NCBI GenBank assembly: GCA_020284085.1
Contig: JACEVL010000461.1
Location: 62,001-126,000 of the forward strand
Source of the DNA: Aporrectodea caliginosa
Lineage: Eukaryota; Annelida; Clitellata; Crassiclitellata; Lumbricidae
Length of the DNA stretch: 64,000 nt
Direction of reading: 5' to 3'
Below are positions 1,122 to 43,886 of this stretch, piece by piece. Below the pieces are notes generated by a model. The model saw only the letters and a list, made by a program, of their open reading frames with translations, did no database searches and had not been told where the DNA came from. The translations under genes were made by a program, and so were the position numbers. Position 1 is the stretch's first letter; every line of letters starts with the position of its first letter.

Positions 1122-1250
1122 CCGCGACTACACCTCTGCCGATTACCTCAACTTCAGCGACAACTACAAATGTGACTTTGTCGACAACCGAAATACAAAC
1201 CACTGGACCTCAGCCAACGAACGTTACGGAAATTCCAACGAGCACTGAGC
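1122..1250 (+). CDS. Gene 1 exon: Thr/Ser/Pro mucin stalk
   Basis: Acceptor TTCTAG and donor GTATGT bound 129 nt with phase 1 at both ends. The 43 residues are rich in Thr, Ser and Pro and include N-V-T sequons, typical of an O-glycosylated stalk. The single 3' base joins in frame to the next mucin exon at 2276. The upstream partner exon is outside the window or unrecognised. Confidence 0.7.
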
Positions 1251-4200
1251 GTATGTATAATTTATGTATGAGCACTTGTTATAGCACCCCTTCAAGATTT
1301 CTACTCAGAGGCGCTCCCGACTACAGCGCGGACACTGAATCGGAGTCTCACGCCGAAGCGCATGAGCAATTGCGAGTGAAGGACTTGCCAAGGGTCCCTA
1401 CGTGGCGGCTTGAGGCGGATTCGAACCCGCAACCCCCCGGCTGCAAGGCACCGAACATACCCCTACACCACCGCGCCCCACAATATTTCTCTTGTCATTG
1501 TCATTGTAATTGCGCAAGTTTGTTGTGAGATCGTAAATCGCGAGTTGCGTCATTGCTTAGCGTAGGCTTTAAGAGTTCCTTAGTAAACACAATTTGAATT
1601 AATTATCTTAAACGCGAACACTGTTGGCCTCCATCATAGATTCATCAAAGCTGTGCGGTGCATGCCAGCAATCCAAAACGCGCTACCGCCGTTTTTAGTC
1701 TTAGTTGCTGGCACAAACACATCGAAAAACCGATGATCGCAGCTGCAGTCGATTAGGATCGTCGGACAGCGGCTTGAGACGCTATGCGAGGTAGCTTGGT
1801 GCACATTTATCTTATCCTCGGCATATGAGTGTGGTCGGATAGGCCTCTCCCTCACCGTCTCCTCTTCCCACTGACAAACGCATACAGAGTGGTGACGTAC
1901 CTGAATATATGTGTGGTTAGATTATTCCCCAGTACGTGAGGATACGAAAAATGAAGTCGCCAACACTTCATACCCATCGCTGCTCAAGGGTAGCTTAGGG
2001 CATTGCACATCTCATTGACCATCCTGTGGTCGTGCTTTGCTTAACAGCAAAAGCACCACAGAAGTCTACCCTTCGTATATGTATCTACCGTAGTTAAACT
2101 ACTAATTTCTCATAAAATATTTAAACCAATATTAAGCATTTTCATTTTTGGAGTCCAGGTTGTCGACAGCCGGGACAGTTTGATAAAGTTCTTTTATCTA
2201 GTCGTGTCGATATGACTTGAACTTGAAGACAATTTGGGGTGTTTCTTTAAGTTATATTTTTACATTTTTCTGCAGTGAACCCAACAGAAACGGCGACTAC
2301 TTCAGCTGTAGTGCAAACTAAAACTTTAACAACTTCAGCCTCAGCTGAAACGACAACTTTAGCCCCAACGACAGTTTCAACCCCAACGACAATATCAATC
2401 CCAACAACTTCGTTCCAAACAACATCTTCAGCCCCAACGACAGCTTCAGCCCCAACGACAGCTCCATTCCAAACGACAATTTTAGTCCCAACGACAACTT
2501 CATTCCAAACGACAATTTTAGCCCCAACGACAACTTCATTCCAAACGACATCTTCAGCCCCAACGACGTCTTCATTCCAAACGACATCTTCAGCCCCAAC
2601 GACATCTTCAGGCCCAACGACAGCTTTAGCCCCAGCAACATCTTCAGTCGCAACGACAATTTCAGCCCCAAAGACAATTTCATTCCAAACGATGATTTCA
2701 GCCCCAACCGCAACTTTAACCCAAACGACATTTTCAGCGCAAACGACAACTTCAGCCCAAACGACAATTTCCGCCCCAATGACAACTTCAGCCCCAACGA
2801 CATCTGCCGTCCCAACGACAATTTCAGTCCCAGCGACAGCTTCATATCAAACCACATCTTCAGCCCCCGCAACAACTTCAGCCCAAACGACCATTTCAGC
2901 CGCATCGAAAATTTCAACCCCAGCTACTGCTTCAGCCTACACGACAACTTTAACCCCGATAACAACATCAATCCCAACAGCTTCGATTTCAACAACATCG
3001 CTTGCCTCTTCGACCACTCCATCCCCAATTACAAATTTTACTTTAGCCACATCCACGAATTCAGTTGCCACCACAACTGCAGCTCGAGGTTCTTCTTTGC
3101 CACCAACGACAACAGTAGCTCCAACTTCAACATTAGCCCCGAGCACAACTTTATCCCAGAACACAACATTAGCGCCAACTTCAAATTTGACACCAACTTC
3201 ATCTTCAACAAGTTTCGTTGATACACCTACTTCGACTTTAACGCCATCAATAACTTTAGCACCAGCGAGCCCTACACTTCTAACTTCAACCCTGTTCGCA
3301 ACTTCTACTTCGGCTGCAAATACAACTTTAACCCCAATAACAAACAATGCAACAGCAATTACACAAACACTTGTTGCATCTACTGCGACTAAGACAACTG
3401 CTCCCGTGACATACGAAACCACGGCCCAACCTACTGTCCCACTAACCGCTTCCGGATTCCCGAATAATTTGTCACTTACCACGACGATTCTAGAAGTATT
3501 GGAAGTCACAAATAAAACTTCAGGTATTTACACTTGTTACACTTGCTGGCCAACTAAGAACTGATATCCTCCTCCTGCTCATCCTGCTCTTCCTCTTCCT
3601 GCTCCCCCTCCTCTTAATCATCATCATCGTCAACAACAGCAACAAGGGCATAATCACCAGGAGCATCACAGCCGATTAACTGTAGGAACCAAGGACTTTC
3701 AATCAGACAGATTTTTGGCGCCCAACGCAACATCTGAGCTCACTGAAAATTCGTGCAATTACATTGCGTTTGATTACGCAATCGACCAGATTAAAATCAC
3801 TAGGTCCACATTCCAGCTGTACCCGAAAAGTTTTTTCCTGATTTGTTTCCGATTTAGACAGTACTTAGTTTCTCTCTGTGTCTCTCTAAACACTATGTAA
3901 TAAAAGCGTGTCTTTTTACATAACTTGTTAATAGCGGTCACGACAACAACTCAGCCAACTACAACTGCACCCGGTACAACAGCTGGACAAAGTACAACTG
4001 CTGGTATGACTACTCTCGGTACAACAGCAGCGACAAGTGCAGCTGCGACTAGTGGAACTACTCCTAGTACATCAGCTGGAACAAGTACAACTGCAAACGG
4101 AACAACTGCTGGACCAACTACAATTGCTCCTGTTACAGCTACATCTGCTGGACCAACTGGAAGTTCTGCAGCACCCACAACTGCTGGACCAACCACAGGT

Positions 4201-6718
4201 TCTGCTGCATCTACAACTGCTGGACCAACCACAGGTTCTGCTGCATCTACAACTGCTGGACCAACCACAGGTTCTGCTGCAGCTACAACTGCTGGACCAA
4301 CCACAGGTTCTGCTGCATCTACAACTGCTGGACCAACCACAGGTTCTGCTGCAGCTACAACTGCTGGACCAACCACAGGTTCTGCTGCATCTACAACTGC
4401 TGGACCAACCACAGGTTCTGCTGCATCTACAACTGCTGGACCAACCACAGGTTCTGCTGCAGCTACAACTGCTGGACCAACCACAGGTTCTGCTGCAGCT
4501 ACAACTGCTGGACCAACCACAGGTTCTGCTGCATCTACAACTGCTGGACCAACCACAGTTTCTGCTGCAGCTACAACTGCTGGACCAACCACAGGTTCTG
4601 CTGCAGCTACAACTGCTGGACCAACCACAGGTTCTGCTGCAGCAACAACTGCTGGACCAACCACAGGTTCTGCTGCACCTACATCTGCTGGACCAACCAC
4701 AGGTTCTGCTGCATCTACAACTGCTGGACCAACCGTAGGCTCTGCTGCAGCTACAACTGCTGGACCAACCACAGGTTCTGCTGCAGCTACAACTCCTGGA
4801 CCAACCGCAGGTACTGCTGCAGCTACAACTGCTCCACCAACCGTAGGTTCTACTGCATCTACAACTGCTGGACCAACCGGAACTCCTGGTGCAGGTATGT
4901 CCTTTCCAGTGTTACTTCAGACTTACCGTTAACGTCAGTACAGCAAGGTAATGTGTAACTAGAAAGCCATATTTTGGTAAATGCAACTTAAGGTACGATA
5001 AGGTAATGTTGATTTAACGCATGGTAGGTAGCGCAATGTTACGCAAGGTAATATTGGGTAAGGCAAAATCAGAGTAGGTAGGATGATAGTTGTTCGTTTA
5101 TTATGCCATATTTCCGTTAGCCTACGAGTAAACATTTGAGGGATATACCGTTTAGCAGTTTACCTACTTGCCACTCATAAAGTTCTGAATGTTAGTAGAG
5201 CCGTCTGAGTGTAGCCTTTTACACGTTTACTTCTTCCTGTCAAACCAAATCATTTTCAATTCTACAAGTTCAAACGATTTTTGTCCCTGTGCACAAGGAG
5301 AATATTAAGAATGTTCAGTGTTTAATCTAGACGTTCTTGGGGGAAGTCCCCGCCAGGATCGAGTTTAACCCCCCCAGAAAAATGAAAGAGATGTTTATTT
5401 TGTACAGAAAGTGTGAAATTTAGGGATAATCCCCCAGGATTTATCGTCAACCCCCCCCCCCCTGCGTCCCCGTGGTCAGGGTGGATTGAGGAAGGGAAAT
5501 TTGTGTTAGAAAACTCTCGTTACTACCTCCTCGAGAAAATTCTTGGGAAAACTGGTTACTACCTTACTACCCCCGGTCGTGAACTTTTCAAATATGTTGG
5601 ATACCCCCTCGAACCCTCGATTCCCCCGACAGCAAGGGGAATAGATTAAACACTGAAGAAAGTTGGATAAAATCAGTAGGAGGCTTTGAATGTACACGTT
5701 TCGTGTCGTCTTAGTTAGAATCGACGAGACCATGACTTGTCAAGAACTGTAATTTCGCTCCTGTTCCAGAAACATAAGTAAGTAAATAAGTAAGTAGGTA
5801 AGTAAGTAAGTATATCCTTTATTGAGAAGCACTAGCAAACGCACAGCACTGTACATGGCAAGATTAATACATTCAAACAAATAAACTCAAATTTATATAT
5901 GCAACCAATGAATTGAATGAGAAGCTTTATTGTACATCAAGGGAACATAGAGGAAGAAGAGCTTGGGATAGTCATAGGGGAAAATGAAGGGTTCAAATAG
6001 CCAGATCTAGGGAAAACATAGTTTATTTGTATAGCATCCGGGCAAGGAAGCATTTCTGAGACATTGTCATTTCAATTTCAGTGTGTGCTGCGAACTGCAC
6101 AACATATGGATGCAACTCTACGGGAGCTTACAAATGCGATCGCTGCGATACAGGATTTACTCTAACGTCAAACGCAACATGCAGCCGTATGTATAGTGGT
6201 TTATCGTGATAGTAATTATAGAATTAAATATCTATTATATTTTCTATTCAATCAATCAATCAATCAATGAAACTTAATATAGCGCCCCTTCAAGATATCT
6301 ACTCAGAGGCGCTCCCGGCCCAACCACAGCTGAAAAGAATAGTTTTCAGAAAGGTATAAAATGCAGGTGAAGAGTTCCTAGGTAAGAGACGGAGCTCAAG
6401 AGGAAGCCCATTCCAGATACTCGGTCCCACAACCGAGAAGGCCCGATGTTGCATTGTAGAAGTGCGTGCAAATGGTACGCTCAGGTCACCGCGGACTGCA
6501 GAGCGAAGGGGTCGGCGGCCAATATTGGCAGAGATAGAGCGACTATTACTGGCTAATAGACAAAACCAATATCATCCGCATAAGAATATTGTGGCGTTGC
6601 CCTGGATATTTTATTATGGATTAAAATAAAAACTCGACATCTAGTTTAAGACCGAATTTACCTGAGCAATATCGGTTATGAATCCTGCATGTTCGATTAT
6701 TTACACTTTTAATGATGT

Positions 6719-6803
<85 letters not shown>

Positions 6804-14934: not shown

Positions 14935-14978
<44 letters not shown>

Positions 14979-15908
14979 GACTTTTTAGTAGTAGTACCAG
15001 TAGTAGTAGTAGTAGTAGTAGTGGCATGGATGTAATACTGAATGTGTAGTAGTAGTAGTAGTCTTAGTAGTAGTCTAGTATTAGTAGTAGTAGTAATGTA
15101 GTATTATTCATGTTACAGTTTGATTATACAGTTGATTTCAGTTTCGTTGGCTTCCAGTAATATTGTATCACATTTAAATTTCAGTTTGTGCTGCGAATTG
15201 CACGACGTATGGATGCAACGCTACGAAAGCTTTCAAATGTGATCGCTGCGATGCAGGATTTGTTCTAACATCAAACGCAACATGCAGCCGTATGTATAAC
15301 GATATTTCATGATTATAGTAATATCATTGAATATCAGAATATTTTATATAGACAATTTCATCCGCATTAGAAAATTGTGGCGTTGCCCTGGATGTTTTAT
15401 TATGGATTAAAATAAATCATTGATATCTCCTAGTTAAAGAATTTGTTTTTCACGTTAACCAACCTGATCTTTTAAAAGCAATAACTGAAACTGAGACATT
15501 TCTTTACAGCTTGTTCTGCGCATTGTACAACGTACGGATGTAACAACACTGGTGCTGGCAAATGTGATACTTGTGACTTAGGATATGGCTTGAATTCAGC
15601 TGGAGCTTGTGACGGTATGTATGATTAAAGTGTTTATCTCAGCTGTGGCTCATACTGCCCGATAGCGCATTGGATAACACACTGGCATCGAGAGCGAGAG
15701 GTACCTCGATCGTAACCCGTGGGCGGACATGCTTTGTAGGCTGCTATTAGCGCCGTGTATTGCAGGTTGTCTGTTCTGTTAGTAGTTAAGATTTATGTCT
15801 TCTGTCATTTGTGTCCTTGTGAATTGTTAAATCGTCATAACATGTAAATGTACAACGCAGTGCGTTTGTCAGGCGCTTGATTAAAGAATAAATATTATTA
15901 TTATTCTC

Positions 15909-15941
<33 letters not shown>

Positions 15942-38900: not shown

Positions 38901-41900
38901 CGAGGGAGGTCCGAGCCCGGTTTCCGGAGGATCAGAGAGGGCACAGCAGATGTTAAGTTGGGTGTCTTAGGTCGAGGATTGGAAGGTACAGGATCAGATG
39001 AGTCAGGGTAAGAGTTCTTGAAAAGGAGAGACTTAGTTTAGAGTGGAAAGTAGTTACGTTGAATATGCACTATATAAATGCTTGCAGTCAATTAACAAAA
39101 AGCAAATATGCTTTTACTACTTGTTTTCGGTGGCGGCGCCAGGGGGCAATAGGGGGCTTAGCCCCCACCCCTTAACTGCGGCTCAGCCTCCCCCAAAAAA
39201 GTGGGAAATTACTCCAAGTCACAGGGAGGAGGGGAGAAAAGGGAAGGGCTGGGAGCTTTAGCCCCCCAACCTGAAATTCTGGCGCCTCCACTGCTTGTTT
39301 TTACTTTTTAGTTTTTTCATTAAAATTTAAAGTTTAGACTTCGAGTTTTTACTTTGTAATAGCGGTTTTATCAAGAATTGTTTTAGCGTTTAGGACTGGG
39401 CATTTAACGCGTTAATAACGCGTTAAATGCCGAGTCCCAAAAAAGTGTCATTGCACGACAAGAATTGTAATGACTTGAGGTATTTTTATTTCTTTAAGCT
39501 TGTGCTCAGAACTGCACAACGTACGGATGTAACATAACTGGTGCCAACAAATGCGACCGTTGCGATGCGGGATTTGTCTTAAATTCCTCTAAAGCATGTG
39601 ACCGTAAGTCAATTTGTAATTTAACTAAATTAATAATCTTAATTGTCTTATATTTGAACGCAATGTTTGTAACGTCAGTGTGAAGATTTTCCGAGTTTTA
39701 TTTCGACAAAACAACACTCGATGTACATCAACGCAAATCTCACAGAGTCCACTATTTATACTACAGGTCTGGCTAGCCTTCTATTCTTTGATTTTAATTG
39801 TTCTGCAAATTGCATGACTTTAACCTGCAACGCAACTGCTGCTTGCAAATGCGACCGCTTTGGATGCAACTTCATTGGCGTTCACAAATGTGATTGTTGC
39901 GAAGCCGTCTTGTTCGTAACGTCACGCAGAATGTGTGGCCGTGAAGTTTTCATAGCTGTTGGTTTCATTATCTCTGATTAATATCTACCATACATGTAAC
40001 AGATTAGGTGTTTTGATATGAAGAGCTGCCTGTTATTGCAAAAGATTTGCACTCGTTGCTTAATATACTAACCCGATGTGCGTTGTTGTTGGGGCCCGGT
40101 AGCGCATTGGATAACACACTGGCATAGAGAGCGAGAGGTATCGAGTTCTAGTCCCGTAGACGGACATGGTTTGTAGGCTGCTATTAGCGCCGTGTATTGC
40201 AGGCTGTCTGTTCTGTTAGTAGTTAAGATTTATGTCTTCTGTCATTAATTTTGTGCTCTTGTGAAGTGTTTCAATTGCATAACATGTAAATGTACAGCGC
40301 ATTGCGTTTGTCAGGCGCTTCAATAAAGAAAAGATTATTATTATTATGATTACAATGATGTCTGATACTTGTAATTCCTTTCATTTCAGCTTGTTCTGCT
40401 TACTGTACAACGTACGGATGCAATATTACGGGTGCCTATAAATGCGATAGATGTGACTCTGGATATGGATTGAATTCAGTTAAAGCATGTGAAGGTATTC
40501 ATTTCAAGATTGTGATTTTTCGTACAGTCTTACAATTTAGCCTAAGGGATTTTTGAACATGTAGTCTTTTATTTTATTCCAAGAGCTTGTTCCGCACACT
40601 GTGTAACATTCGGGTGTAACGTTACGGGTGCTGCGAAGCTAGCCTTCTATTGTTTTGTTTTAATTTGTTCTGCGAAATGCACGACTTTAAGTTGCAATGC
40701 AACTGCTGAGCACTTTCAAATGCGCCCGAGGTTTAAGCAAATCCATTGACGTTTACAAATGTGATCGTTGCGAAGTCTAATTGTGCATTAAGCCAAACGG
40801 AACATTGGCCGTATGTATTAGCGCCGTTTAAGCCTTTAGCTGTTAGTTTCAGTGACTCTGATTAACATCTACCCTACGCGTAACAGATAAAGTGCTATAT
40901 GATATAAAGAACTGAATGTTGTTCCAGGTGGTATGCAATCGTTGTCTTATGTGCAATCTTTTAACGCCTTGGACTAAGCCTAAAATGATGTTTGAGACTT
41001 GTATTTTAATTCATTTCAGCTTGTTCTGCTCACTGCACGTTCGGATGCAGTATTACGGGTGCCGGTAAATGCGATAGGTGTGACCAGGGATATGGATTAG
41101 CTTCAACTGGAGCATGTGAAGGTATTCATTTCAAGATTGTGATTTCTCTTACAATTTAGCCTAAAGGATTATTGAACATGTAGTCTTTGATTTTATTCCA
41201 CTAGCCTTCTATTGTTTGGTTTTTATTTGTTCTGCGAATTGCAACGCAACTTCTGCTTACAAATACGACCGCTATGAATGCAACTCCACTGGCGCTGACA
41301 AATGTATTAGTGCCGTGAAAGGTTTTTAGCTGTTAGTTTAATTATTTCTGATTAACATCTACCCTACGCGTAACAGCTAATGTGCTATGACATAATGACC
41401 TGACTGTTGTTCCATATGATATGCAATCGTTGTTTACTTTGCAATCTTTGTTTACTTTGCACTCGTTTAACGCCTTGAGGAAAGCCTAAATGATAGCTGA
41501 GACTTGTATTTTAATTCATTTCAGCTTGTTTACTTTGCAATCTTTGTTTACTTTGCACTCGTTTAACGCCTTGAGGAAATCCTAAAATGATAGCTGAGAC
41601 TTGTATTTTAATTCATTTCAGCTTGTTTACTTTGCAATCTTTGTTTACTTTGCACTCGTTTAACGCCTTGAGGAAAGCCTAAAATGATAGCTGAGACTTG
41701 TATTTTAATTCATTTCAGCTTGTTTACTTTGCAATCTTTGTTTACTTTGCACTCGTTTAACGCCTTGAGGAAAGCCTAAAATGATAGCTGAGACTTGTAT
41801 TTTAATTCATTTCAGCTTGTTTACTTTGCAATCTTTGTTTACTTTGCACTCGTTTAACGCCTTGAGGAAAGCCTAAAATGATAGCTGAGACTTGTATTTT

Positions 41901-43886
41901 AATTCATTTCAGCTTGTTCTGCTCACTGCGCGTTCGGATGCAATACTACGGGTGCCTACAAATGCGATAGATGTGACTCTGGATATGGATTGAATTCAGC
42001 TGGAGCATGTGAAGGTATTCATTTCAAGATTGTGATTTCTCGTGCAGTCCTACAATTTAGCCTAAGGGATTATTGAACCTTGTAATCTTTAATTTTATTC
42101 CAAGAAGCTAGCATTCTATTGTTTGATTTTAATTTGTTCTGCGCATTGCACGACTCTAAGTTGCAATTCAACAAATACGACCGCTGTTTATGTAACTCGT
42201 TTACAAATGCAAAAAAACTGCGTGAAAAACCACTGCAGCTCAAACAAACACTTTAGTAGCAAATGCAGCCACTGCAATTACTGAATTTCTTGACTTGTTC
42301 CGCTCCTATTTTAATTGGTCATAGAATAAAATTTAAATGTAGGTCCTAACTGATAGTGGTGTCATGTTTCAGTCAATGCAACTACGACTTCGCCTACGCT
42401 CCAAACAAGTATGTCCACCTTACAATTAATAGTTATTAGACAGTTTAATTTACATGATTTTGTTGCTTTTTGAACATGCTTATTTTCAATTCATTTAATA
42501 TTCTTTCGTTGCTAATTACTAATAATGTCGTCAAAACCCGTCTTTCCATTATCCATTGATCATTTCCCGGAGCATTTCTACATACTATGCTTCTTCCTTT
42601 GATGCTTCCACTGTTAACCCGTACAATATAGATCAATTCTCTTTATTTAGCGGCTGTTGGGAAATAACCGATTAATCGGCCGGAAATCGGTTAGGGCCGG
42701 ATTTTGCACTAATCGGTATTAATTGGAATCGGCGCATCCCAGGACTCCTGATCTAAATAACAAAACAAATAATATTTTTTGACCAAAAACAATTTCTTCT
42801 TTCATTAATACAAAAATAGTAGGTCTGTTTTGGCGACCTCCTACGGTAGTATTTAATCCTGAATATTGAAAATCCGTGGAAAATAATAAAATTGTGAGTC
42901 GACGCGTCATCAAAATGGCGGACAGTCTGGTTTTTTAGTAACAGGCAGTGCCTAAAACCAATAAAAGTGAACATTGCCGATTAATTGGATCGGAATCGGC
43001 GAAAAAGCAGGCCAAATAATCGGAATCGGAAATCGGCAAAAATACCAATCGGTCCTTCCCTAGCGTCTGTCAAAGCCCGAGCACACATCGCTGTCTAACT
43101 GATCTAAACTGGCGCATTAATATGTCCATTAAAGTAAGTAGACGTATTTGCAGTAATATGTTGGCAAACATTCGATCAATAACATAACATAACAAGGGTT
43201 TCAAGTGGTTCAGAAGACGTTTAGTCTGTGTTAAAACCACTGCAGTTAACCTGAAACATGATTAATAGCCCAATTTTCCTAGCTTCTTAAAAGCTGTGAT
43301 AGTGTCCACTGAGACAGTACTATCATCCAAACTATTCCACAAATCTACAACTCTTGCACTGAAGAATTACTGCCCTAATGTCCCTTTCGGTTTCTTGAAT
43401 GATTTATACCTATGTCCCCGAGTCGCCTTGTTTGGTGCTAATTCAAAAAACAATCCATCTATCATTTTTCTGTAGAATACTCTAGCTGTGTTTTTCGTGT
43501 TTTCAGCAACTCCGCTTGCGGTCGTGATTACGGTAGCCATACTGAGCACAGTACTGGGATTGATTAGTGTGGCTGGACTGACCCTGGGAGGCATCCTCCT
43601 CTTCACTCGCTTCTGCCCGCTGTTGGGTGCAGGCGGCGCTCTGAGAGCTGCCGCTCAACCAGTAGCTGAAGCCGCTCCGGGGATGTTCACGCGACCGTCA
43701 ATGTTCCCAGCTGCACCTCCGCGTCGATACTGGTATCCCTCTTACCTCAACGACATCGAGGCCGCTCGACCGCCCTATCCAATGGGTCGGCCAGCGGCAC
43801 CCTATCGCCCGGCTTTCACAGGGCCACAGACTGCCGCTCAAAGCGATATGCCTGTCGTAAGCAGTTACTTTCAAGTTGATTGGTAG
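1122..43886 (+). CDS. Gene 1: modular membrane mucin (STP/Cys-module/NIDO/AMOP/EGF/TM), 5' partial, multi-exon
   Basis: Gene-level entry; exons are listed separately. About 45 candidate coding exons lie on one strand and join in frame. The order is mucin stalk, six-Cys modules, mucin, modules, NIDO, AMOP-like, beta-rich segment, EGF-like run, modules, transmembrane helix, short cytoplasmic tail. NIDO plus AMOP plus EGF is the layout of the MUC4/sushi-nidogen family of cell-surface proteins, so a large heavily O- and N-glycosylated type I surface protein is inferred. No signal peptide exon is visible, and the first visible exon needs an upstream phase-1 exon, so the 5' end is outside the window. 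Phases agree across almost all junctions, which supports one gene. Splitting into two genes is possible but there is no internal leader or membrane exon before 43507. Confidence 0.75.
1251..1491 (-). mobile_element. tRNA-derived SINE (family A)
   Basis: Read on the minus strand it starts with a tRNA-like head with box B GGTTCGAATCC, and ends in a tail related to the 3' ends of the LINEs here (GCGCCTCTGAGTAGA... then TATAAC). The same family lies at 33006-33230 and 35025-35260. Its tail reaches the splice donor of the preceding exon. Confidence 0.8.
1780..2040. repeat. Fragments of SINE family D
   Basis: 1790-1870 matches in reverse the segment GAGACGG...CATATGCCGAGG seen at 51850-52150, and 1955-2035 matches its AACACTTCAT...CCAT tail in forward sense. 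Probably two rearranged fragments in the intron. Confidence 0.45.
2276..3523 (+). CDS. Gene 1 exon: large mucin domain, Thr/Ser/Ala/Pro repeats
   Basis: Acceptor TTTTTCTGCAG and donor GTATTT define 1248 nt (416 codons), phase 1 at both ends, fully open. The first half is built of degenerate short repeats such as APTTSFQTT and SAPTT; the second half is irregular but still Thr/Ser-rich with scattered Asn sequons. No cysteine occurs within the exon. This is the classic composition of a mucin O-glycosylation domain. Long opposite-strand and alternate-frame open readings here come from the repeat composition. Confidence 0.85.
3524..3934. other. Intron with pyrimidine-rich tract
   Basis: Intron between two mucin exons. 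3566-3620 is a CTCCTGCTC/CTTCCT-rich tract followed by ATC/AAC trinucleotide runs. No exon recognised. Confidence 0.6.
3935..4894 (+). CDS. Gene 1 exon: mucin tandem-repeat domain (36-bp units)
   Basis: Acceptor GTTAATAG and donor GTATGT bound 960 nt, phase 1 both ends, 320 codons. After a 70-residue Thr/Ser/Gly lead, about 19 copies of a 12-residue unit GPTTGSA(A/S)(A/S)TTA follow, from about 4186 to 4880, encoded by near-identical 36-bp repeats. The unit ends are degenerate as expected for a VNTR. The product is a rigid O-glycosylated stalk segment. Confidence 0.85.
4895..5315. other. Intron, short AAGGTAATG-like repeats
   Basis: 4940-5075 carries several loose copies of the motif AAGGTAATG. 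No coding exon seen. Confidence 0.4.
5316..5655. mobile_element. hAT-like MITE, C/G-run rich
   Basis: Ends are inverted copies of CAGTGTTTAATCTA (5316-5329 and 5642-5655). Flanks AAGAATGTT (5307-5315) and AAGAAAGTT (5656-5664) form a near-perfect target duplication. The interior has runs of C and G and no convincing coding region. Confidence 0.75.
6082..6186 (+). CDS. Gene 1 exon: 35-residue six-Cys module 1 (type A)
   Basis: Acceptor TTTCAG, donor GTATGT, 105 nt, phase 1-1. Cysteines follow C-x3-C-x4-C-x7-C-x2-C-x11-C, with the core [15 protein letters not shown]. The spacing recalls furin-like and VSP-type cysteine repeats, an inference from spacing only. The core holds an N-x-T sequon and the end carries N-A-T. 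Founder-like type A module also seen at 15185, 16021, 16584, 37330 and 37835. Confidence 0.85.
6283..6560 (-). mobile_element. LINE 3' fragment (CR1/L2-like reverse transcriptase C-terminus)
   Basis: The minus strand translates to a typical LINE C-terminal segment including [17 protein letters not shown], followed by a 3' tail GGCGCTATA. It is 5' truncated and sits in the intron between modules. Confidence 0.7.
6575..6655 (+). repeat. Residual type B module intron sequence
   Basis: The stretch with CATCCGCATAAGAATATTGTGGCGTTG matches intron sequence that precedes type B modules at 14215, 15355, 16195 and 37500 (longest quoted piece here is split: CATCCGCAT then GTGGCGTTG). No type B exon follows, suggesting one was lost. 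Confidence 0.5.
6715..6802. repeat. (ATG)n microsatellite
   Basis: About 29 uninterrupted ATG/GAT units. It abuts the 3' end of the minus-strand SINE that follows, consistent with a SINE tail expanded into a microsatellite. Confidence 0.95.
6803..7040 (-). mobile_element. tRNA-derived SINE (family C)
   Basis: On the minus strand it starts with a tRNA-like head (box B GTTCGATACC) at about 7020-6985 and continues through GGAAGCC... to a tail at 6803. Relatives lie at 47157-47397, 57662-57905 and 58815-58895. Confidence 0.7.
7143..7247 (+). CDS. Gene 1 exon: six-Cys module 2 (type C)
   Basis: Acceptor TTTCTTTCAG, donor GTAAGT, 105 nt, phase 1-1. Core [19 protein letters not shown] with all six cysteines. 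Its 3' intron resembles those of the type C modules at 38266 and 38514, which links the first and third arrays. Confidence 0.85.
7468..7572 (+). CDS. Gene 1 exon: six-Cys module 3 (type D)
   Basis: Acceptor GTTTCAG, donor GTAATT, 105 nt, phase 1-1. Six cysteines kept; core [19 protein letters not shown]. This module lacks the N-x-T sequon found after the third cysteine in most others. Confidence 0.85.
7573..8244. other. Intron, nothing recognised
   Basis: AT-rich intron. Short open frames lack domain or compositional support. Confidence 0.5.
8245..8349 (+). CDS. Gene 1 exon: six-Cys module 4 (type D)
   Basis: Acceptor GATTTTAG, donor GTATGA, 105 nt, phase 1-1. Core [19 protein letters not shown], six cysteines and N-V-T sequon. 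Confidence 0.85.
8350..8704. other. Intron, nothing recognised
   Basis: About 355 bp between modules 4 and 5. No repeat or exon recognised. Confidence 0.5.
8705..8809 (+). CDS. Gene 1 exon: six-Cys module 5 (type E)
   Basis: Acceptor CTTATCCAG, donor GTATGT, 105 nt, phase 1-1. Core [18 protein letters not shown]; two N-x-T sequons. Confidence 0.85.
9015..9119 (+). CDS. Gene 1 exon: six-Cys module 6 (type F)
   Basis: Acceptor CATTTCAG, donor GTATTC, 105 nt, phase 1-1. Core [19 protein letters not shown]. The downstream intron start (GTATTCATTTCAA) matches those of modules at 40390, 41020 and 41913. Confidence 0.85.
9205..9262 (+). pseudogene. Degenerate module relic
   Basis: TTTGATTTCAATTTATTCTG then CGAATTGCACGACG resembles the start of a module exon but lacks an acceptor AG and the rest of the module. 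The same degenerate start recurs at about 39790, 40650, 41215 and 42125. Confidence 0.6.
9683..11225 (+). pseudogene. Gene 1 mucin exon, interrupted by MITE and frameshifts
   Basis: Acceptor CCCTACTAG and donor GTACAA bound a Thr/Ser/Pro-rich region that starts and ends in phase 1 but is not open throughout. It holds about nine copies of a 63-nt unit ([21 protein letters not shown]) from about 10465 to 11075. A MITE interrupts it at 9912-10090, with a shift between the frames read on either side. A 23-nt shortfall at 10676-10700 creates a stop, and 5-nt and 1-nt deletions occur near 10953 and 11012. The final Pro/Thr part (11085-11225) is in a different frame from 10207. Either the exon is dead and skipped, or some indels are assembly errors in the repeats. 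Confidence 0.6.
9912..10090. mobile_element. MITE with CATGGGCGTA termini
   Basis: Short inverted ends CATGGGCGTA and ATACGCCCAT. A perfect 9-bp direct repeat ATCCAAACG flanks it (9903-9911 and 10091-10099). 179 bp, noncoding, inserted in the mucin exon. Confidence 0.8.
11226..12697. other. Intron, mostly unrecognised
   Basis: No exon recognised. 12587-12645 resembles 21839-21890 (both contain GTGCATTAGA and ATAGAAGTT), a small dispersed repeat. Confidence 0.4.
12698..12823 (+). CDS. Gene 1 exon: short Thr/Ser/Pro stalk
   Basis: Strong acceptor TTCTACTTCTGCTGCAG and donor GTGAGT give 126 nt, phase 1-1, 42 residues rich in Thr, Ala, Ser and Pro without cysteine. It continues the second mucin block. 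Confidence 0.65.
12824..14364. other. Intron, mostly unrecognised
   Basis: A Pro/Thr-like stretch at 13498-13560 before GTTAGT could be an old stalk exon, but its only acceptor gives the wrong phase. 14205-14340 is the conserved type B module intron. Nothing else seen. Confidence 0.4.
14365..14469 (+). CDS. Gene 1 exon: six-Cys module 7 (type B)
   Basis: Acceptor TTTCTTTTCAG, donor GTATGT, 105 nt, phase 1-1. Core [19 protein letters not shown]. Almost identical to module 9 at 15510. Confidence 0.85.
14512..14770 (+). mobile_element. tRNA-Arg-like SINE (family B)
   Basis: Head GATAGCGCATTGGATAACAC resembles a tRNA-Arg 5' half including box A; a degenerate box B region follows. The body ends AATAAATATTATTATT, i.e. 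a microsatellite tail. Other copies: 15654, 35610, 40090, 47493, 55815. Confidence 0.8.
14935..15110. repeat. (ATT)n and (TAG)n microsatellites
   Basis: 14935-14980 is ATT repeats; 14988-15100 is broken TAG/AGT repeats. Confidence 0.9.
15185..15289 (+). CDS. Gene 1 exon: six-Cys module 8 (type A)
   Basis: Acceptor AAATTTCAG, donor GTATGT, 105 nt, phase 1-1. Core [18 protein letters not shown]; near-identical to module 10 at 16021. Confidence 0.85.
15510..15614 (+). CDS. Gene 1 exon: six-Cys module 9 (type B)
   Basis: Acceptor TTTCTTTACAG, donor GTATGT, 105 nt, phase 1-1. Core [19 protein letters not shown]. Part of a duplicated two-exon block with modules 7 and 8. Confidence 0.85.
15654..15940 (+). 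mobile_element. tRNA-Arg-like SINE (family B), duplicated with host intron
   Basis: Nearly identical to 14512-14770, including the variant CATCGAGAGCGAG not seen in the other copies, and the same flanks. It was copied with the surrounding block rather than inserted independently. Ends in an (ATT)n tail. Confidence 0.8.
16021..16125 (+). CDS. Gene 1 exon: six-Cys module 10 (type A)
   Basis: Acceptor TTTCAATTTCAG, donor GTATGT, 105 nt, phase 1-1. Core [19 protein letters not shown]. Confidence 0.85.
16363..16464 (+). pseudogene. Dead six-Cys module (type B)
   Basis: The 3' two thirds match type B modules up to the donor GACG/GTATGT. At the 5' end the acceptor CAG is replaced by CAA, the first two cysteines are lost (GTTCTAGTTAGC), and one extra base in TGTAACTGTCACTGG shifts the frame. 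It cannot be spliced or translated as a module. Confidence 0.8.
16584..16688 (+). CDS. Gene 1 exon: six-Cys module 11 (type A)
   Basis: Acceptor AAATTTCAG, donor GTATGT, 105 nt, phase 1-1. Core [19 protein letters not shown]. Confidence 0.85.
16866..16945 (+). pseudogene. Module relic, 5' part only
   Basis: TTTTGTCAG followed by CCTGTTCTTCGAATTGCTG matches a module start, then similarity decays. No donor or later cysteines. Confidence 0.45.
17153..17260 (+). CDS. Gene 1 exon: six-Cys module 12 (36 residues)
   Basis: Acceptor TAATTTCAG, donor GTATGT, 108 nt, phase 1-1. Core [20 protein letters not shown]; one extra codon before the donor. The asparagine of the usual sequon is Gly here. Last module before the NIDO domain; its final C joins GT of 21260 to give Arg. 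Confidence 0.85.
17261..17805. other. Intron, nothing recognised
   Basis: First part of a 4-kb intron. No exon seen. Confidence 0.5.
17806..18545 (-). mobile_element. LINE fragment, CR1/L2-like reverse transcriptase C-terminus
   Basis: The minus strand encodes a 237-residue open frame starting at [16 protein letters not shown] and containing [18 protein letters not shown], typical of the C-terminal part of LINE reverse transcriptases. Overlapping frames carry [14 protein letters not shown], so the copy has frameshifts. It is 5' truncated and the 3' tail (GCGCTATATAAATT) lies at about 17825. Confidence 0.85.
18546..21259. other. Long intron, no exon recognised
   Basis: AT-rich. 20465-20545 has about five clustered copies of GCCGTGAAT. 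No coding exon or clear transposon boundaries. Confidence 0.45.
21260..21390 (+). CDS. Gene 1 exon: NIDO domain, first part
   Basis: Acceptor TTTATTTAG, donor GTAAGT, 131 nt, phase 1 in and phase 0 out. The text CPYGQ...[12 protein letters not shown]...FCFGNKKF matches the start of NIDO domains (LFPYG, DDG, F.FFG..Y). Continues directly into 22634. Confidence 0.8.
21755..22040. repeat. Degenerate tandem repeats, AAGGTGTGGTATCCC type
   Basis: About seven irregular copies of a 28-34 bp unit containing AAGGTGTG(G/A)TATCCC between the first two NIDO exons. Confidence 0.6.
22634..23014 (+). CDS. Gene 1 exon: NIDO domain, central part
   Basis: Acceptor TTGTTGCAG, donor GTAAGC, 381 nt, phase 0-0, 127 codons. 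Hallmarks of [35 protein letters not shown], and [20 protein letters not shown] domains are found in nidogen, alpha-tectorin and MUC4-type proteins. Confidence 0.92.
23057..23234. repeat. 91-bp tandem duplication
   Basis: Two adjacent copies beginning GTTTCA(A/G)AGCTAAAGCAGTA at 23057 and 23148, about 90% alike, in the NIDO intron. Confidence 0.85.
23592..23790 (+). mobile_element. tRNA-derived SINE (family D)
   Basis: tRNA-like head GATAGCGTAGTGGTTAGCGT, then body with CAGAAATTTGCTTCGAG and GAGACGGCGAGG, as at 28123-28320 and 51850-52150. Confidence 0.7.
23866..23976. repeat. (TATAT)n / (ATTAT)n microsatellite
   Basis: AT dinucleotides followed by about 18 copies of the pentamer ATATT, ending 40 bp before the third NIDO exon. 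Confidence 0.95.
24019..24223 (+). CDS. Gene 1 exon: NIDO domain, C-terminal part
   Basis: Acceptor GACTTTCAG at 24018, donor GTGAGA, 205 nt, phase 0 in, phase 1 out. [20 protein letters not shown] is the conserved NIDO C-terminal strand, followed by CQGFQAGNC. The 24018 acceptor is preferred to 24036 because it keeps the usual FQMVLVSD. Confidence 0.85.
24430..24680 (-). mobile_element. LINE 3' fragment (same family as 30999-31290)
   Basis: Minus strand encodes a broken [15 protein letters not shown] C-terminus and the 3' tail AGAGGCGC...GGCGCTATAAA. 5' truncated. Confidence 0.65.
24790..25037 (-). mobile_element. tRNA-Ser/Leu-like SINE (family E)
   Basis: The minus strand starts CCTGAGTGGCCGAGTGGCTT (box A as in type II tRNAs), box B GGTTCGATTCC, then a non-tRNA body ending in a GTCGTTAAGCCC tail. 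The long body after the head argues against a real tRNA gene. Confidence 0.7.
25139..25376 (+). CDS. Gene 1 exon: AMOP-like segment
   Basis: Acceptor GTTGAAAG, donor GTGAAC, 238 nt, phase 1 in, phase 2 out. After WILPVSGPQ comes [10 protein letters not shown]...[10 protein letters not shown], matching the C-x-x-W and LPPC signature of AMOP domains, which follow NIDO in MUC4-type proteins. The later AMOP cysteines are not evident, so the domain is reduced or split. Confidence 0.7.
25787..25827 (+). CDS. Gene 1 candidate mini-exon (41 nt)
   Basis: Needed to link the phase-2 donor at 25376 to the phase-1 acceptor at 26211. Acceptor ACGGCTCTTTAG and donor GTTTTG give exactly phase 2 in and phase 1 out, adding about 14 residues ([13 protein letters not shown]). 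Supported by phase logic only. Confidence 0.45.
26211..26427 (+). CDS. Gene 1 exon: beta-rich extracellular segment
   Basis: Acceptor ATGCTTACAG, donor GTATGC, 217 nt, phase 1 in, phase 2 out. It holds [20 protein letters not shown] and many N-x-S/T sequons, no cysteine. It occupies the place between AMOP and EGF where MUC4-like proteins have a VWD domain, but no VWD GDP motif is seen. Confidence 0.7.
26428..27916. other. Intron with transposon remnants
   Basis: 26881-27130 starts with (CAAT)n and an AT-rich tail like a minus-strand LINE end. 27483-27690 reads [17 protein letters not shown] in one frame and resembles an unidentified transposon end. No exon recognised. Confidence 0.4.
27917..28089 (+). 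CDS. Gene 1 exon: end of beta segment and start of EGF-like
   Basis: Acceptor CTTCTATAG, donor GTAATT, 173 nt, phase 2 in, phase 1 out. [18 protein letters not shown] followed by [13 protein letters not shown] matches the strand-plus-EGF junction seen after the VWD/beta region of MUC4-like proteins. Confidence 0.85.
28123..28320 (+). mobile_element. tRNA-derived SINE (family D)
   Basis: tRNA-like head with GATAGTCTAATGGTTAGAGT and box B GGTTCGAAACTCC, then CAGAAATTTGTTTCGAG and GAGACGGCGAG. Confidence 0.75.
28445..28612 (+). mobile_element. LINE 3' UTR with (GATT)n tail
   Basis: GGTGTCCCTACTTAGCGGG then GATCTTTGATC, ending in ATAAACGATTGATTGATTG. Same 3' UTR as 59760-59895 and 63560-63750. 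Confidence 0.7.
29012..29149 (+). CDS. Gene 1 exon: EGF-like
   Basis: Acceptor TTACTTTCCAG, donor GTAAGT, 138 nt, phase 1-1. [16 protein letters not shown]... with eight cysteines and [13 protein letters not shown]. Completes the EGF begun at 27917 and adds another. Confidence 0.85.
29150..29576. other. Intron, nothing recognised
   Basis: AT-rich intron between EGF exons. Confidence 0.5.
29577..29708 (+). CDS. Gene 1 exon: calcium-binding EGF
   Basis: Acceptor CGTTATAG, donor GTAATC, 132 nt, phase 1-1. DIDECNET...[12 protein letters not shown] is a full cbEGF signature with the DIDE calcium ligands and the D/Y hydroxylation-type motif. Confidence 0.92.
29709..30138. other. Intron, nothing recognised
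   Basis: AT-rich intron between EGF exons. Confidence 0.5.
30139..30258 (+). CDS. Gene 1 exon: calcium-binding EGF
   Basis: Acceptor TTATTTTCAG, donor GTGAGC, 120 nt, phase 1-1. DIDECALR...[16 protein letters not shown]. Confidence 0.92.
30283..30385 (-). repeat. LINE 3' tail fragment
   Basis: (ATTC)n followed by TTTATATAGCGTCCCTTCAA and GCGCTCCC, the inverted 3' end of the local LINE family. Confidence 0.6.
30823..30924 (+). CDS. Gene 1 exon: short Cys-rich, atypical EGF
   Basis: Acceptor TTCTTTTAAG, donor GTAAGA, 102 nt, phase 1-1. [18 protein letters not shown] has seven cysteines in 34 codons, an EGF-like ending but a compressed N-terminal half. Confidence 0.8.
30999..31290 (-). mobile_element. 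LINE 3' fragment
   Basis: Minus strand encodes [19 protein letters not shown], a LINE reverse transcriptase C-terminus, then EWRYINV and the 3' tail with GTAATCGTAATCG. 5' truncated. Confidence 0.8.
31795..31920 (+). CDS. Gene 1 exon: calcium-binding EGF
   Basis: Acceptor GTTTGGCAG, donor GTTAGT, 126 nt, phase 1-1. DINECQTT...[16 protein letters not shown], complete cbEGF. Confidence 0.92.
31921..32326. other. Intron, nothing recognised
   Basis: AT-rich intron ending in a T-rich tract before the next acceptor. Confidence 0.5.
32327..32578 (+). CDS. Gene 1 exon: laminin/MEGF-type EGF plus cbEGF
   Basis: Acceptor TTCCAAATAG, donor GTAAGT, 252 nt, phase 1-1. [18 protein letters not shown] is a laminin/MEGF-type EGF; it runs into [12 protein letters not shown]...[12 protein letters not shown], a cbEGF, so two domains share one exon. 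This exon differs from the one-domain-per-exon rule around it. Confidence 0.92.
33006..33230 (+). mobile_element. tRNA-derived SINE (family A)
   Basis: GGGGCGCGGTGGTGTAGGG head and box B GGTTCGAATGC, then CCGCGTAGGGACCTTGAGC. Rearranged 3' half. Confidence 0.75.
33639..33800 (+). CDS. Gene 1 exon: EGF-like
   Basis: Acceptor GTTTCTAG, donor GTACGG, 162 nt, phase 1-1. [20 protein letters not shown] then [12 protein letters not shown], a canonical EGF with a longer N-terminal loop. Confidence 0.9.
   Translation, partial: YWIPAFTTKLTNNWCSHRTSKDVKMLDDALMDLLMKATIPVTALQGTLERVAR
34150..34290 (-). mobile_element. Possible tRNA-derived SINE
   Basis: Minus strand has GGTGCTCTAATCGGTTAGCG and GGGTTCAAGC, a tRNA-like head, followed by a non-tRNA body. 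No second copy in the window, so the call is weak. Confidence 0.4.
34573..34686 (+). CDS. Gene 1 exon: calcium-binding EGF
   Basis: Acceptor TTTCATTGCAG, donor GTGAGT, 114 nt, phase 1-1. [19 protein letters not shown] then [14 protein letters not shown]. Last EGF of the run. Confidence 0.92.
34935..35330 (-). mobile_element. LINE 3' end interrupted by a SINE
   Basis: 34940-35020 and 35260-35330 are contiguous in the related copy at 60440-60590; here a plus-strand SINE A (35025-35260) is inserted, ending in (CATA)n. A nested insertion. Confidence 0.75.
35025..35260 (+). mobile_element. tRNA-derived SINE (family A), full length
   Basis: Best preserved copy: head GGGCGCGGTGGTGTAGGAGT, box B GGTTCAAATCC, CCGCCGCGTAGGGACCCTGG body, 3' part GCGCCTCTGAGTAGAAATC matching the local LINE tail, then (CATA)n. 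Confidence 0.85.
35610..35865 (+). mobile_element. tRNA-Arg-like SINE (family B)
   Basis: GATAGCGCATTGGATAACAC head and AATAAAGAATATTATTATT tail. Confidence 0.8.
36021..36047 (+). CDS. Gene 1 exon: 9-codon stalk linker
   Basis: Acceptor TATGTTTTACAG, donor GTATGA, 27 nt, phase 1-1, reading N-ITQTTAQE. Similar in type to the stalk exon at 42373. Joins the EGF run to the third module array. Confidence 0.6.
36097..36780 (+). mobile_element. LINE fragment, RTE/craniofacial-type RT C-terminus
   Basis: A 218-residue open frame with [44 protein letters not shown] and [11 protein letters not shown], the C-terminal signature of a widespread non-LTR retrotransposon class. It ends in AAGAAGAAG. It lacks the catalytic part and lies within the intron, so it is not a host gene. 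Confidence 0.85.
36815..37285 (-). mobile_element. LINE fragment, CR1/L2-like
   Basis: Minus strand reads [34 protein letters not shown] and [19 protein letters not shown] in two frames. 5' truncated, frameshifted, abutting an unrelated LINE in the opposite orientation. Confidence 0.85.
37330..37434 (+). CDS. Gene 1: six-Cys module 13 (type A), donor site lost
   Basis: Acceptor CATTTCAG and a fully open six-Cys module ([19 protein letters not shown]). The donor position reads CTATGT where all sister modules have GTATGT. Normal splicing out is therefore unlikely; as a symmetric exon it can be skipped without a frameshift. Could be functional via the GTATTG four bases on, which would shift the frame. 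Confidence 0.6.
37614..37718 (+). CDS. Gene 1 exon: six-Cys module 14 (type B)
   Basis: Acceptor TTTCTTTTCAG, donor GTATGT, 105 nt, phase 1-1. Core [19 protein letters not shown]. Confidence 0.85.
37835..37939 (+). CDS. Gene 1 exon: six-Cys module 15 (type A)
   Basis: Acceptor AAATTTCAG, donor GTATGT, 105 nt, phase 1-1. Core [19 protein letters not shown]. Confidence 0.85.
38266..38370 (+). CDS. Gene 1 exon: six-Cys module 16 (type C)
   Basis: Acceptor TTTATTTCAG, donor GTAAGT, 105 nt, phase 1-1. Core [20 protein letters not shown]. First of three near-identical module-plus-intron copies spaced 248 bp. Confidence 0.85.
38514..38618 (+). CDS. Gene 1 exon: six-Cys module 17 (type C)
   Basis: Acceptor TTTCTTTCAG, donor GTAAGT, 105 nt, phase 1-1. 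Core [19 protein letters not shown]. Confidence 0.85.
39128..39293. mobile_element. hAT-like MITE with perfect 8-bp duplication
   Basis: Inverted ends CGGTGGCGGCGCCAG and CTGGCGCCTCCACTG; target duplication CTTGTTTT at 39120-39127 and 39294-39301. 166 bp. Confidence 0.85.
39400..39430. repeat. Perfect 31-bp palindrome
   Basis: Arms GCATTTAACGCGTTA and TAACGCGTTAAATGC are exact reverse complements around one A. Further imperfect pairing extends to GGACT...GAGTCC. Confidence 0.95.
39499..39603 (+). CDS. Gene 1 exon: six-Cys module 18 (type C)
   Basis: Acceptor TTTCTTTAAG (AAG instead of the CAG of sisters), donor GTAAGT, 105 nt, phase 1-1. Core [19 protein letters not shown]. Confidence 0.8.
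39776..39943 (+). pseudogene. Chimeric module relic
   Basis: Open but lacking an acceptor AG before CTTTGATTTTAATTG. Reads [20 protein letters not shown] then a second partial module [12 protein letters not shown]...MCGR. It looks like two modules fused by an internal deletion. Confidence 0.6.
40090..40348 (+). mobile_element. tRNA-Arg-like SINE (family B)
   Basis: GGTAGCGCATTGGATAACAC head, AATAAAGAAAAGATTATTATT tail. Confidence 0.8.
40390..40494 (+). CDS. Gene 1 exon: six-Cys module 19 (type F)
   Basis: Acceptor CATTTCAG, donor GTATTC, 105 nt, phase 1-1. Core [19 protein letters not shown]. Confidence 0.85.
40583..40815 (+). pseudogene. Chimeric module relics
   Basis: CAAGAGCTTGTTCCGCACAC begins a module that breaks at GCTGCGAAG, then joins the CTAGCCTTCTATTG relic start seen elsewhere, and ends TTGGCC/GTATGT like an old donor. 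Several stops interrupt it. Confidence 0.65.
41020..41121 (+). CDS. Gene 1 exon: six-Cys module 20 (type F, 34 residues)
   Basis: Acceptor CATTTCAG, donor GTATTC, 102 nt, phase 1-1. Core [21 protein letters not shown]: one codon shorter than other modules between the second and third Cys. Confidence 0.85.
41200..41312 (+). pseudogene. Module relic
   Basis: CTAGCCTTCTATTGTTTGG start, then TTCTGCGAATTGCAACGCAA and TACAAATACGACCGC, an internally deleted module with no acceptor. Confidence 0.55.
41427..41911 (+). repeat. 97-bp minisatellite carrying a 3' splice site
   Basis: Five near-identical 97-bp copies. Each holds TTGTTTACTTTGCA (twice) and ends TTTTAATTCATTTCAG, the same polypyrimidine tract and AG as the true acceptor of module 21. 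AG ends fall at 41524, 41621, 41718, 41815 and, for the true site, 41912. Decoy use would read 15 codons to TGA. Confidence 0.93.
41913..42014 (+). CDS. Gene 1 exon: six-Cys module 21 (type F, 34 residues)
   Basis: Acceptor CATTTCAG, donor GTATTC, 102 nt, phase 1-1. Core [21 protein letters not shown]. Shares the one-codon deletion with module 20, so the two are sisters. Last module before the stalk. Confidence 0.85.
42103..42270 (+). pseudogene. Module relic
   Basis: CTAGCATTCTATTGTTTG start and CTGCGCATTGCACGACTC then a heavily deleted module body. No splice sites. Confidence 0.55.
42373..42408 (+). CDS. Gene 1 exon: 12-codon Thr-rich stalk
   Basis: Acceptor CATGTTTCAG, donor GTATGT, 36 nt, phase 1-1, reading [12 protein letters not shown]. 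Juxtamembrane stalk just before the transmembrane exon. Confidence 0.7.
42658..43062. mobile_element. hAT-like element, ACCGATT-rich ends
   Basis: Ends (T)GGGAAATAACCGATTA and the inverse TTGGTATTTTTGCCGATT...; flanks GCGGCTGT (42650-42657) and GCGTCTGT (43063-43070) differ at one base. Same family as 61212-61646. Confidence 0.65.
43190..43490 (-). mobile_element. LINE 3' end, L2/CR1-like
   Basis: Minus strand reads [17 protein letters not shown], then in another frame [19 protein letters not shown] and [10 protein letters not shown], the classic C-terminus of L2/CR1 reverse transcriptases. It ends within about 20 bp of the acceptor of the membrane exon. Confidence 0.8.
43507..43886 (+). CDS. 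Gene 1 exon: transmembrane helix and cytoplasmic tail
   Basis: Acceptor GTGTTTTCAG, phase 1 in. [20 protein letters not shown] through GGILLF is a 27-residue hydrophobic helix, followed by a Pro/Tyr/Arg-rich tail with [19 protein letters not shown]. Two ends are possible: reading through to the TAG at 43884-43886, or splicing at CCTGTC/GTAAGC (43861, phase 0) to a further exon, as gene 2 does. Candidate downstream acceptors with phase 0 are at 45287 (TTCTGTTTTCAG) and 45647; neither is decisive. This anchors the protein with the modules outside the cell. Confidence 0.85.

Follow-up and report, generated by a model that had tools for sequence, protein, structure and literature searches.

Human MUC4 presents, in this order, mucin repeats, a NIDO domain, EGF-like domains, a single transmembrane segment and a short tail (PMC5354666), and its VWD domain bears a putative GDPH cleavage site (PMC8660890 and PMC5354666). 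Mucins with NIDO, AMOP and VWD have been described in sea anemones with varied extra domains, and copies with a partial set of the three are termed mucin-like there (PMC9080433). The phase 1-1 symmetry of shuffled extracellular modules has long been established in animal genes (PMC8001218) and, this being a textbook feature, the phase 1-1 modularity of the locus presented here is by itself unsurprising.

The window, that is, the whole stretch of 64,000 nucleotides that was analysed, corresponds to C460:62001-126000 (plain positions refer to the window, those prefixed with C460 to the contig). We consider, with a probability of about 0.73, that it contains the 3' part of a single giant gene for a type I membrane mucin, derived from a MUC4-type gene and carrying arrays of a six-cysteine (six-Cys) module. 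This gene would extend over at least 72 kb, the window holding ca. 43 kb of it and 2,375 of 7,028 predicted residues. The 39 exons modelled between 1122 and 43886 (Table 1) join, consistently with their phases, into one open frame with a predicted product of 2,375 aa and a single stop, at 43886, the final exon encoding a transmembrane segment and a cytoplasmic tail. Their AG/GT borders exist by construction, since exons were picked for them, and splice-site scores, many of which are low, come from a generic, untrained matrix. Exons compatible with the frame continue for 28 kb upstream of the window on the same strand, among them 10 mucin exons that range from 96 to 3,567 nt and are compatible with phase 1-1, and two six-Cys arrays; a join of 62 exons (39 from the window and 23 from upstream) gave a frame of 7,028 aa whose only stop is the final one. 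The start given in the original prediction, 1122, could therefore not be maintained, as it is just that of the first modelled exon in the window. Additional small exons are possible, for instance at 12.7 kb or in the interval of 17.3-21.3 kb.

Table 1. Modelled exons, relics and remnants of the locus (window positions, with contig positions in brackets where given; phases as entry-exit)
Feature	Position	Strand	Phase	Remarks
Small mucin exon	1122..1250	+	1-1	129 nt; like-sized exons upstream at C460:33912, 48781, 59558
Mucin exon	2276..3523	+	1-1	1248 nt; T 33%, S 16%, P 10%
Mucin exon	3935..4894	+	1-1	960 nt; 36-nt tandem repeat, 21.5 copies; weak acceptor score
Six-Cys exon C1	6082..6186	+	1-1	
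Six-Cys exon C2	7143..7247	+	1-1	
Six-Cys exon C3	7468..7572	+	1-1	
Six-Cys exon C4	8245..8349	+	1-1	
Six-Cys exon C5	8705..8809	+	1-1	
Six-Cys exon C6	9015..9119	+	1-1	
Broken mucin block D	10246..11226	+		Approximate limits; outside join
Six-Cys exon D1	14365..14469	+	1-1	
Six-Cys exon D2	15185..15289	+	1-1	
Six-Cys exon D3	15510..15614	+	1-1	
Six-Cys exon D4	16021..16125	+	1-1	
Partial six-Cys remnant	16398..16463 (C460:78398-78463)	+		C-terminal part only
Six-Cys exon D5	16584..16688	+	1-1	
Six-Cys exon D6	17153..17260	+	1-1	Donor 3 nt further out
NIDO-region exon a	21260..21390	+	1-0	
NIDO exon b	22634..23014	+	0-0	
NIDO exon c	24019..24223	+	0-1	
AMOP first-half exon relic	25139..25376	+		7 nt shorter than upstream copy; frameshifted
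Exon X1	26211..26427	+	1-2	Big_9-like beta-sandwich, second part
Exon X2	27917..28089	+	2-1	Big_9-like end and EGF-like CxCxNGxC stretch
EGF exon 1	29012..29149	+	1-1	
EGF exon 2	29577..29708	+	1-1	
EGF exon 3	30139..30258	+	1-1	
EGF-like exon 4	30823..30924	+	1-1	
EGF exon 5	31795..31920	+	1-1	
EGF exon 6	32327..32578	+	1-1	Double
EGF exon 7	33639..33800	+	1-1	
EGF exon 8	34573..34686	+	1-1	
Stalk exon	36021..36047	+	1-1	27 nt
Six-Cys exon E1	37330..37434	+		CT for donor GT (dead or skipped); outside join
Six-Cys exon E2	37614..37718	+	1-1	
Six-Cys exon E3	37835..37939	+	1-1	
Six-Cys exon E4	38266..38370	+	1-1	
Six-Cys exon E5	38514..38618	+	1-1	
Six-Cys exon E6	39499..39603	+	1-1	AAG acceptor
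Degenerate six-Cys remnant	39799..39936 (C460:101799-101936)	+		
Six-Cys exon E7	40390..40494	+	1-1	
Degenerate six-Cys remnants	40588..40704 (C460:102588-102704)	+		
Six-Cys exon E8	41020..41121	+	1-1	102 nt
Degenerate six-Cys remnant	41228..41326 (C460:103228-103326)	+		
Six-Cys exon E9	41913..42014	+	1-1	102 nt
Degenerate six-Cys remnant	42135..42173 (C460:104135-104173)	+		
Stalk exon	42373..42408	+	1-1	36 nt
Terminal exon	43507..43886	+	1 (entry)	Transmembrane segment and cytoplasmic tail; stop codon last

The original prediction, a giant modular mucin gene whose exons can be gained or lost without a change of frame, is partly supported, and a membrane-anchored mucin of this kind, encoded by one gene, is the best reading. 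That the gene is built almost wholly of phase 1-1 exons was borne out by 33 of the 38 internal exons of the window model (3 mucin, 20 six-Cys, 8 EGF and 2 stalk exons) and, as in class 1-1 modular proteins, modules coincide with exons bounded by phase 1 introns. All eight EGF exons and both stalk exons are of the phase claimed, as are three of the four mucin blocks of the window, the fourth (block D) being broken, and 20 of the 21 six-Cys exons have an in-phase donor (3 nt further out in one of them), the other one lacking it. The five remaining internal exons make up the NIDO set and the X pair, each of which is 1-1 when taken as a block; the idea of frame-neutral modules holds inasmuch as blocks have been duplicated and lost at the locus, and fails for the NIDO exons, X1 and X2 taken singly. 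Among 6,339 random AG..GT intervals of 90-120 nt taken from the window, 414 are open and phase 1-1, and the six-Cys exon copies, being related, do not count as independent trials against this figure.

As for the predicted NIDO/AMOP/EGF core, NIDO and EGF were confirmed by Pfam on the joined window core (NIDO, E 3e-22; EGF_CA, E 6.4e-26), AMOP turned out to be a frameshifted half, and no VWD exon was found. The locus is like human MUC4 in having mucin blocks, NIDO, EGF-like domains, a single transmembrane segment and a short tail in the same order; it differs in that the window copy has no usable AMOP and no VWD, in its eight EGF exons, in the spreading of the mucin part over many exons, and in the six-Cys arrays, which separate mucin blocks and also intervene between the membrane and the EGF exons. 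By the rule of PMC9080433, the window copy would be called mucin-like, of MUC4-type descent, and not a MUC4 member. The domain order, for which the original prediction had found no described counterpart, is therefore in part that of a truncated MUC4-type core; the six-Cys module and its combination with such a core could not be matched to a known family, and the combination was not found in the parts of the open-licence literature covered.

A fuller core (core 1), with the order NIDO-AMOP-VWD-C8-3-Big_9-EGF8, is located at C460:4.8-28.8 kb. Pfam matches to pieces of it include VWD (E 5e-6, in a model of the domain that lacks its middle) and C8-3_MUC4 (E 1.3e-6), and its VWD carries GEPH. The AMOP region of core 1, in which the frame after the first-half exon was read as the second half of AMOP, gave no Pfam family match, and it aligns with public relatives. 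The 13 exons common to both cores (731 codons) are stop-free in both copies, with pS 0.77 and pN 0.27. Synonymous sites are thus near saturation, which implies that the duplication is old and that constraint acted on both copies during most of the time since; judging from this sequence comparison, the window core has been shaped by purifying selection in the past. A first search of public proteins rendered 431, mostly via EGF repeats, of which 120 were listed. Pieces of core 1 align collinearly, at ca. 22-38% identity, with six annelid and mollusc proteins named mucin-like or uncharacterised (Ridgeia piscesae P0065 and P0077, Lamellibrachia P0103, Littorina P0097, Liolophura P0013 and Haliotis P0025), which present NIDO, regions matching the AMOP, VWD and C8-3 pieces of core 1, and then the X part and EGF arrays. 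Among the four that were scanned, Big_9 was found in two, C8-3_MUC4 in one and SEA in three, whereas SEA had no Pfam match in the window core, the tested six-Cys arrays or the terminal exon. With phmmer, X1-X2 matched only the annelid proteins P0065, P0103 and P0077 among 125 proteins.

The window core departs from core 1 between NIDO and X1. Because the AMOP relic is 7 nt shorter than the upstream AMOP exon, its frame is changed, and its inclusion would lead to a stop ca. 100 residues later; when it is skipped, NIDO, which ends in phase 1, joins X1, which starts in phase 1, and the frame is intact to the end. AMOP cannot, therefore, be in use in a full-length product. Counterparts of the second half of AMOP, VWD and C8-3 were not found before 26211 in the window, where the space from AMOP to X1 is 0.83 kb, versus 7 kb across which these and further exons extend in core 1, and no VWD-like frame was found between 25377 and 26211 in a comparison that did not include ca. 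23.9-24.1 kb. The window copy is consequently without an intact AMOP, a VWD with a GDPH-type site, or C8-3_MUC4. Since pN is below pS in both pieces of the relic (0.35 versus 0.65 in the first, of 46 codons, and 0.13 versus 0.55 in the second, of 31 codons), the loss of AMOP looks recent relative to the duplication of the core.

Two further lesions lie outside the core. In mucin block D, the mucin frame changes three times within 63-nt repeats, and the six-Cys exon E1 has CT where GT is expected, at 37435, so that a full-length product requires the skipping of this dead exon as well as of the AMOP relic. The frame is unbroken in 13 other mucin exons amounting to 14,928 nt, which makes a general poor assembly an unlikely cause of the broken block D; the AMOP and donor lesions could be local assembly errors. 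These 13 exons are what is left of 16 Thr/Ser-rich blocks after C460:33396-33503 (no phase 1 donor), C460:47452-47550 (weak) and block D itself were dropped, a stretch at C460:74718 lying outside the 16.

The six-Cys module corresponds to one exon with regular borders. Twenty-one exons with the six-Cys pattern were found in the window, E1 (37330) being dropped from the join for its donor. Over three loci (C460, C113 and C590), AG is found two bases before the first Cys codon in 95 of 95 pattern matches, and GT four bases past the sixth Cys codon in 93 of 95; an added filter for the C460 matches removed none of 37. The modules are also rich in N-glycosylation sequons. A comparison with 300 shuffles per locus in which Cys positions were kept rendered 62 sequons in 37 modules of C460 versus 17.7 in shuffles (maximum 28), 31 in 17 modules of C113 versus 8.9 (maximum 15), and 112 in 41 modules of C590 versus 21.3 (maximum 34). 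The longest DNA matches between arrays, introns included, are of 88% over 1,129 nt (A-B), 72% over 994 nt (A-C) and 77% over 2,327 nt (B-C). B2-B6 and C2-C6 are mutual matches in the same order, and A1-A4 and A7 match B1-B4 and B6, the best matches of A5, A6 and C1 being elsewhere; arrays A, B and C can hence be described, as far as alignments tell, as largely collinear copies, introns included. D1-D5, before the core, have their best matches in E1-E3, after the core, and E4, E5 and E7 are closer to arrays A-C than to D, in a comparison that is not fair to E8 and E9, which are one residue shorter. About five near-identical 97-nt tandem copies at 41430-41918 seem to consist of a six-Cys acceptor region without the module.

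No credible family match was obtained for the module, which appears to resemble furin-like (FU) repeats. Pfam rendered no furin-like or VSP match for the six-Cys modules of the three loci and, for the module, only sub-cutoff matches such as the Tc5 transposase C-terminus and DUF6140; NCBIfam gave nothing beyond one sub-cutoff SelD match, and Rfam no match at gathering score. A sequence search of the PDB with a six-Cys array rendered three zinc-finger proteins (E 0.01-0.36), which were taken for chance. One search led to five public proteins related to the arrays, and a three-row profile to 14 (E 4e-19 to 3e-4); candidate lengths were limited in these searches, so that longer relatives may escape them. 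Those named are from dinoflagellates, from ciliates and from an annelid, whose protein P0134 has a hydrophobic C-terminus; the best ones look by eye like furin-like repeats, and PF03302 was found on 4 of 19. A low-confidence structure model of one module (pLDDT 76, pTM 0.39) has as its best fold matches the FU domains of R-spondin (E ca. 4, TM ca. 0.6), none of them significant. The Cys spacing is similar to that of the FU repeats of R-spondin (Fu1-Fu2), of dinoflagellate and ciliate repeat proteins and of P0134, but the C2-C3 spacing is mostly 4 (3 in C590) instead of 2, and the module is here one phase 1-1 exon, of 102-108 nt in the window, with many sequons. None of the 120 core relatives listed out of 431 was matched by a six-Cys array with phmmer at E <= 1, and none of 125 proteins contained five or more modules by a strict Cys-spacing pattern; phmmer is to be preferred, since the pattern also missed the furin-like P0121 and P0122. 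An analogy, and only that, can be drawn with gel-forming mucins (MUC2, MUC5AC, MUC5B), which are secreted, have VWD and cystine-knot ends and contain CysD domains: mucin blocks alternate with small Cys-rich modules in both.

In the 1.1-Gb genome that was searched for relatives of the locus, the six-Cys query rendered at least 151 matches (150 of 276 candidates were scored), on at least 15 contigs among the matches listed, and the NIDO query 33 matches on 7 contigs. C460 is the sole contig in both sets, and the pairing of NIDO and six-Cys looks unique in the genome, in both cases among the matches listed. A 30-kb region of another contig (C590:417001-447000) contains 41 six-Cys exons, in every one of which AG and GT occupy the usual positions; a Ser/Thr-rich stretch and a candidate transmembrane terminal exon come next, and the region is apparently a predicted gene for a stand-alone six-Cys surface protein; its terminal exon showed no match to that of the window. 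A 20-kb region (C113:1410001-1430000) carries an array of 17 modules, the last of which has the usual furin-like C-x2-C and is perhaps a link to ordinary furin-like repeats. Five matches with identical scores, spaced ca. 1.6 kb apart, at C1786:2984-9666 are perhaps a very recent tandem amplification. A 50-kb contig (C853) considered as a closer paralogue locus was dropped, as neither EGF-like nor mucin context showed up near its NIDO matches in a scan for phase 1-1 exons.

The preferred reading would have arrays of the short six-cysteine module joined to a gene of MUC4 type (NIDO-AMOP-VWD-C8-3-Big_9-EGF-TM). In the outer part of the predicted protein, Thr/Ser-rich mucin blocks would alternate with sequon-dense, Cys-rich arrays, the former as extended O-glycosylated segments and the latter as compact, N-glycosylated, disulfide-braced ones; further inward would follow NIDO, half a Big_9, the core of eight EGF exons, the second six-Cys array, a short stalk, the transmembrane helix and the tail. 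The NIDO-EGF part and the second array would lift the molecule off the membrane. Because nearly all blocks are bounded by phase 1 introns, they could be duplicated, as with arrays A, B and C, and lost, as with VWD, AMOP and the donor, without loss of the downstream frame. With no VWD, and hence no place for a GDPH site, the window copy probably stays uncleaved, in one piece, core 1 having GEPH. A role in an epithelial surface coat (barrier, lubrication, adhesion) seems likely, and glycosylation, disulfides, localisation and the transcript itself are deduced from the predicted gene. The single-gene reading is supported by the open 39- and 62-exon joins, the Pfam matches to NIDO and EGF, the VWD and C8-3_MUC4 matches of core 1 and its collinearity with annelid and mollusc proteins, the constraint on the core, the sequon excess and the likeness among arrays. 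Counted against it are the signs of decay (AMOP relic, block D, dead donor), the low splice scores, the affinity of E4, E5 and E7 for arrays A-C, and the lack of a signal-peptide exon above background in C460:28-64 kb.

These same signs of decay could mean that the copy is a pseudogene that no longer makes a protein, to which the several six-Cys remnants would add, as would an AMOP that was constrained until not long ago. The lesions are confined, however, to blocks whose loss is frame-neutral, and AG/GT sites and open frames are retained by 13 core exons, by the terminal exon and by 20 six-Cys exons, which random decay is unlikely to have spared, so that we hold this explanation to be decidedly unlikely. 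Quite unlikely, too, is a division into two or more genes, for instance with a first gene that closes past the EGF exons and another, of six-Cys transmembrane type, that occupies 36-44 kb. The C590 locus, with its 41 six-Cys exons, stalk-like stretch and transmembrane candidate and with no NIDO among the matches listed, suggests that six-Cys transmembrane genes exist alone, and the 2.9-kb gap from 34686, the end of EGF exon 8, to 37614, where the first usable six-Cys exon starts, holds a reverse-transcriptase-like frame. Nevertheless, a scan listed no terminal exon with a transmembrane segment on the way from the EGF exons to array E, the hydrophobic-looking stop-to-stop frame at 34.0 kb having been rejected as a TTGCTG-type run within an intron; EGF exon 8 is followed by a phase 1-1 stalk exon, and D1-D5 and E1-E3, which flank the core, match each other best.

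It can also be the case that the gene of the preferred reading extends further, core 1 and the window core forming in tandem a gene of more than 100 kb with one membrane anchor, a possibility that we put forward tentatively. Core 1 is followed by three six-Cys exons and, from C460:33.9 kb, by phase 1-1 mucin exons on the same strand, and no start exon stands out between it and the window: the search for a signal peptide or first exon in C460:28-64 kb gave six candidates versus five on the minus strand, none above background. Still, little weight can be given to the lack of a recognisable first or last exon, and a scan for terminal exons in C460:28.8-63.1 kb rendered nine entries, of which four are read-through of six-Cys exons and the others lie at C460:29556, 33739/33757 and 47552/47600; the minus strand is an unfair control here, as antisense mucin reads hydrophobic (24 entries). 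These candidates were taken for chance, although that at C460:29556, located immediately past core 1 and encoding 39 aa (hydrophobicity 2.63, acceptor score 1.0), could anchor a separate gene 1. The exon-like stretch at C460:33403-33503 runs into a stop and lacks a phase 1 donor. Since the contig starts inside Thr-rich sequence, the true 5' end may be off the contig. A broader proposal, which appears rather unlikely as a whole, is that of a two-core surface mucin gene of more than 100 kb, with 33 or more six-Cys exons and 13 mucin exons, all of them frame-neutral, within a six-Cys family of surface proteins that is amplified across the genome and apparently lineage-restricted, whose arrays vary by duplication and skipping to give a variable coat, possibly with a role in recognition or defence.

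The single-gene reading would make the locus a well resolved case of exon-modular growth and loss, in which one contig holds two MUC4-type cores, one fuller and the other without AMOP-VWD-C8-3 yet otherwise in frame. It also brings to light a module with no credible Pfam or NCBIfam match, at least 151 matches in the genome and a single-exon form in 95 cases. Exon shuffling, array variation among individuals and isoform diversity of the surface coat become directly testable with long reads.

Other sequences accompany the gene in the window. Open frames at 36088-36753 and 17806-18600 (minus strand) look like what we take to be remnants of LINE reverse transcriptases. At 54306-57660, 21-nt repeats (58 copies) encode a Thr/Pro-rich block, with a candidate transmembrane terminal exon at ca. 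57224, and this stretch looks like a second, separate mucin gene downstream; its terminal exon has at best a weak likeness to that at 43507 (E 0.03). Related stretches at C460:131216 (with stops) and C460:137272 suggest a tandem family, whose members by eye share an FRPA-like tail motif. A TTGA tetranucleotide is repeated in 34 perfect copies at 59895-60031.
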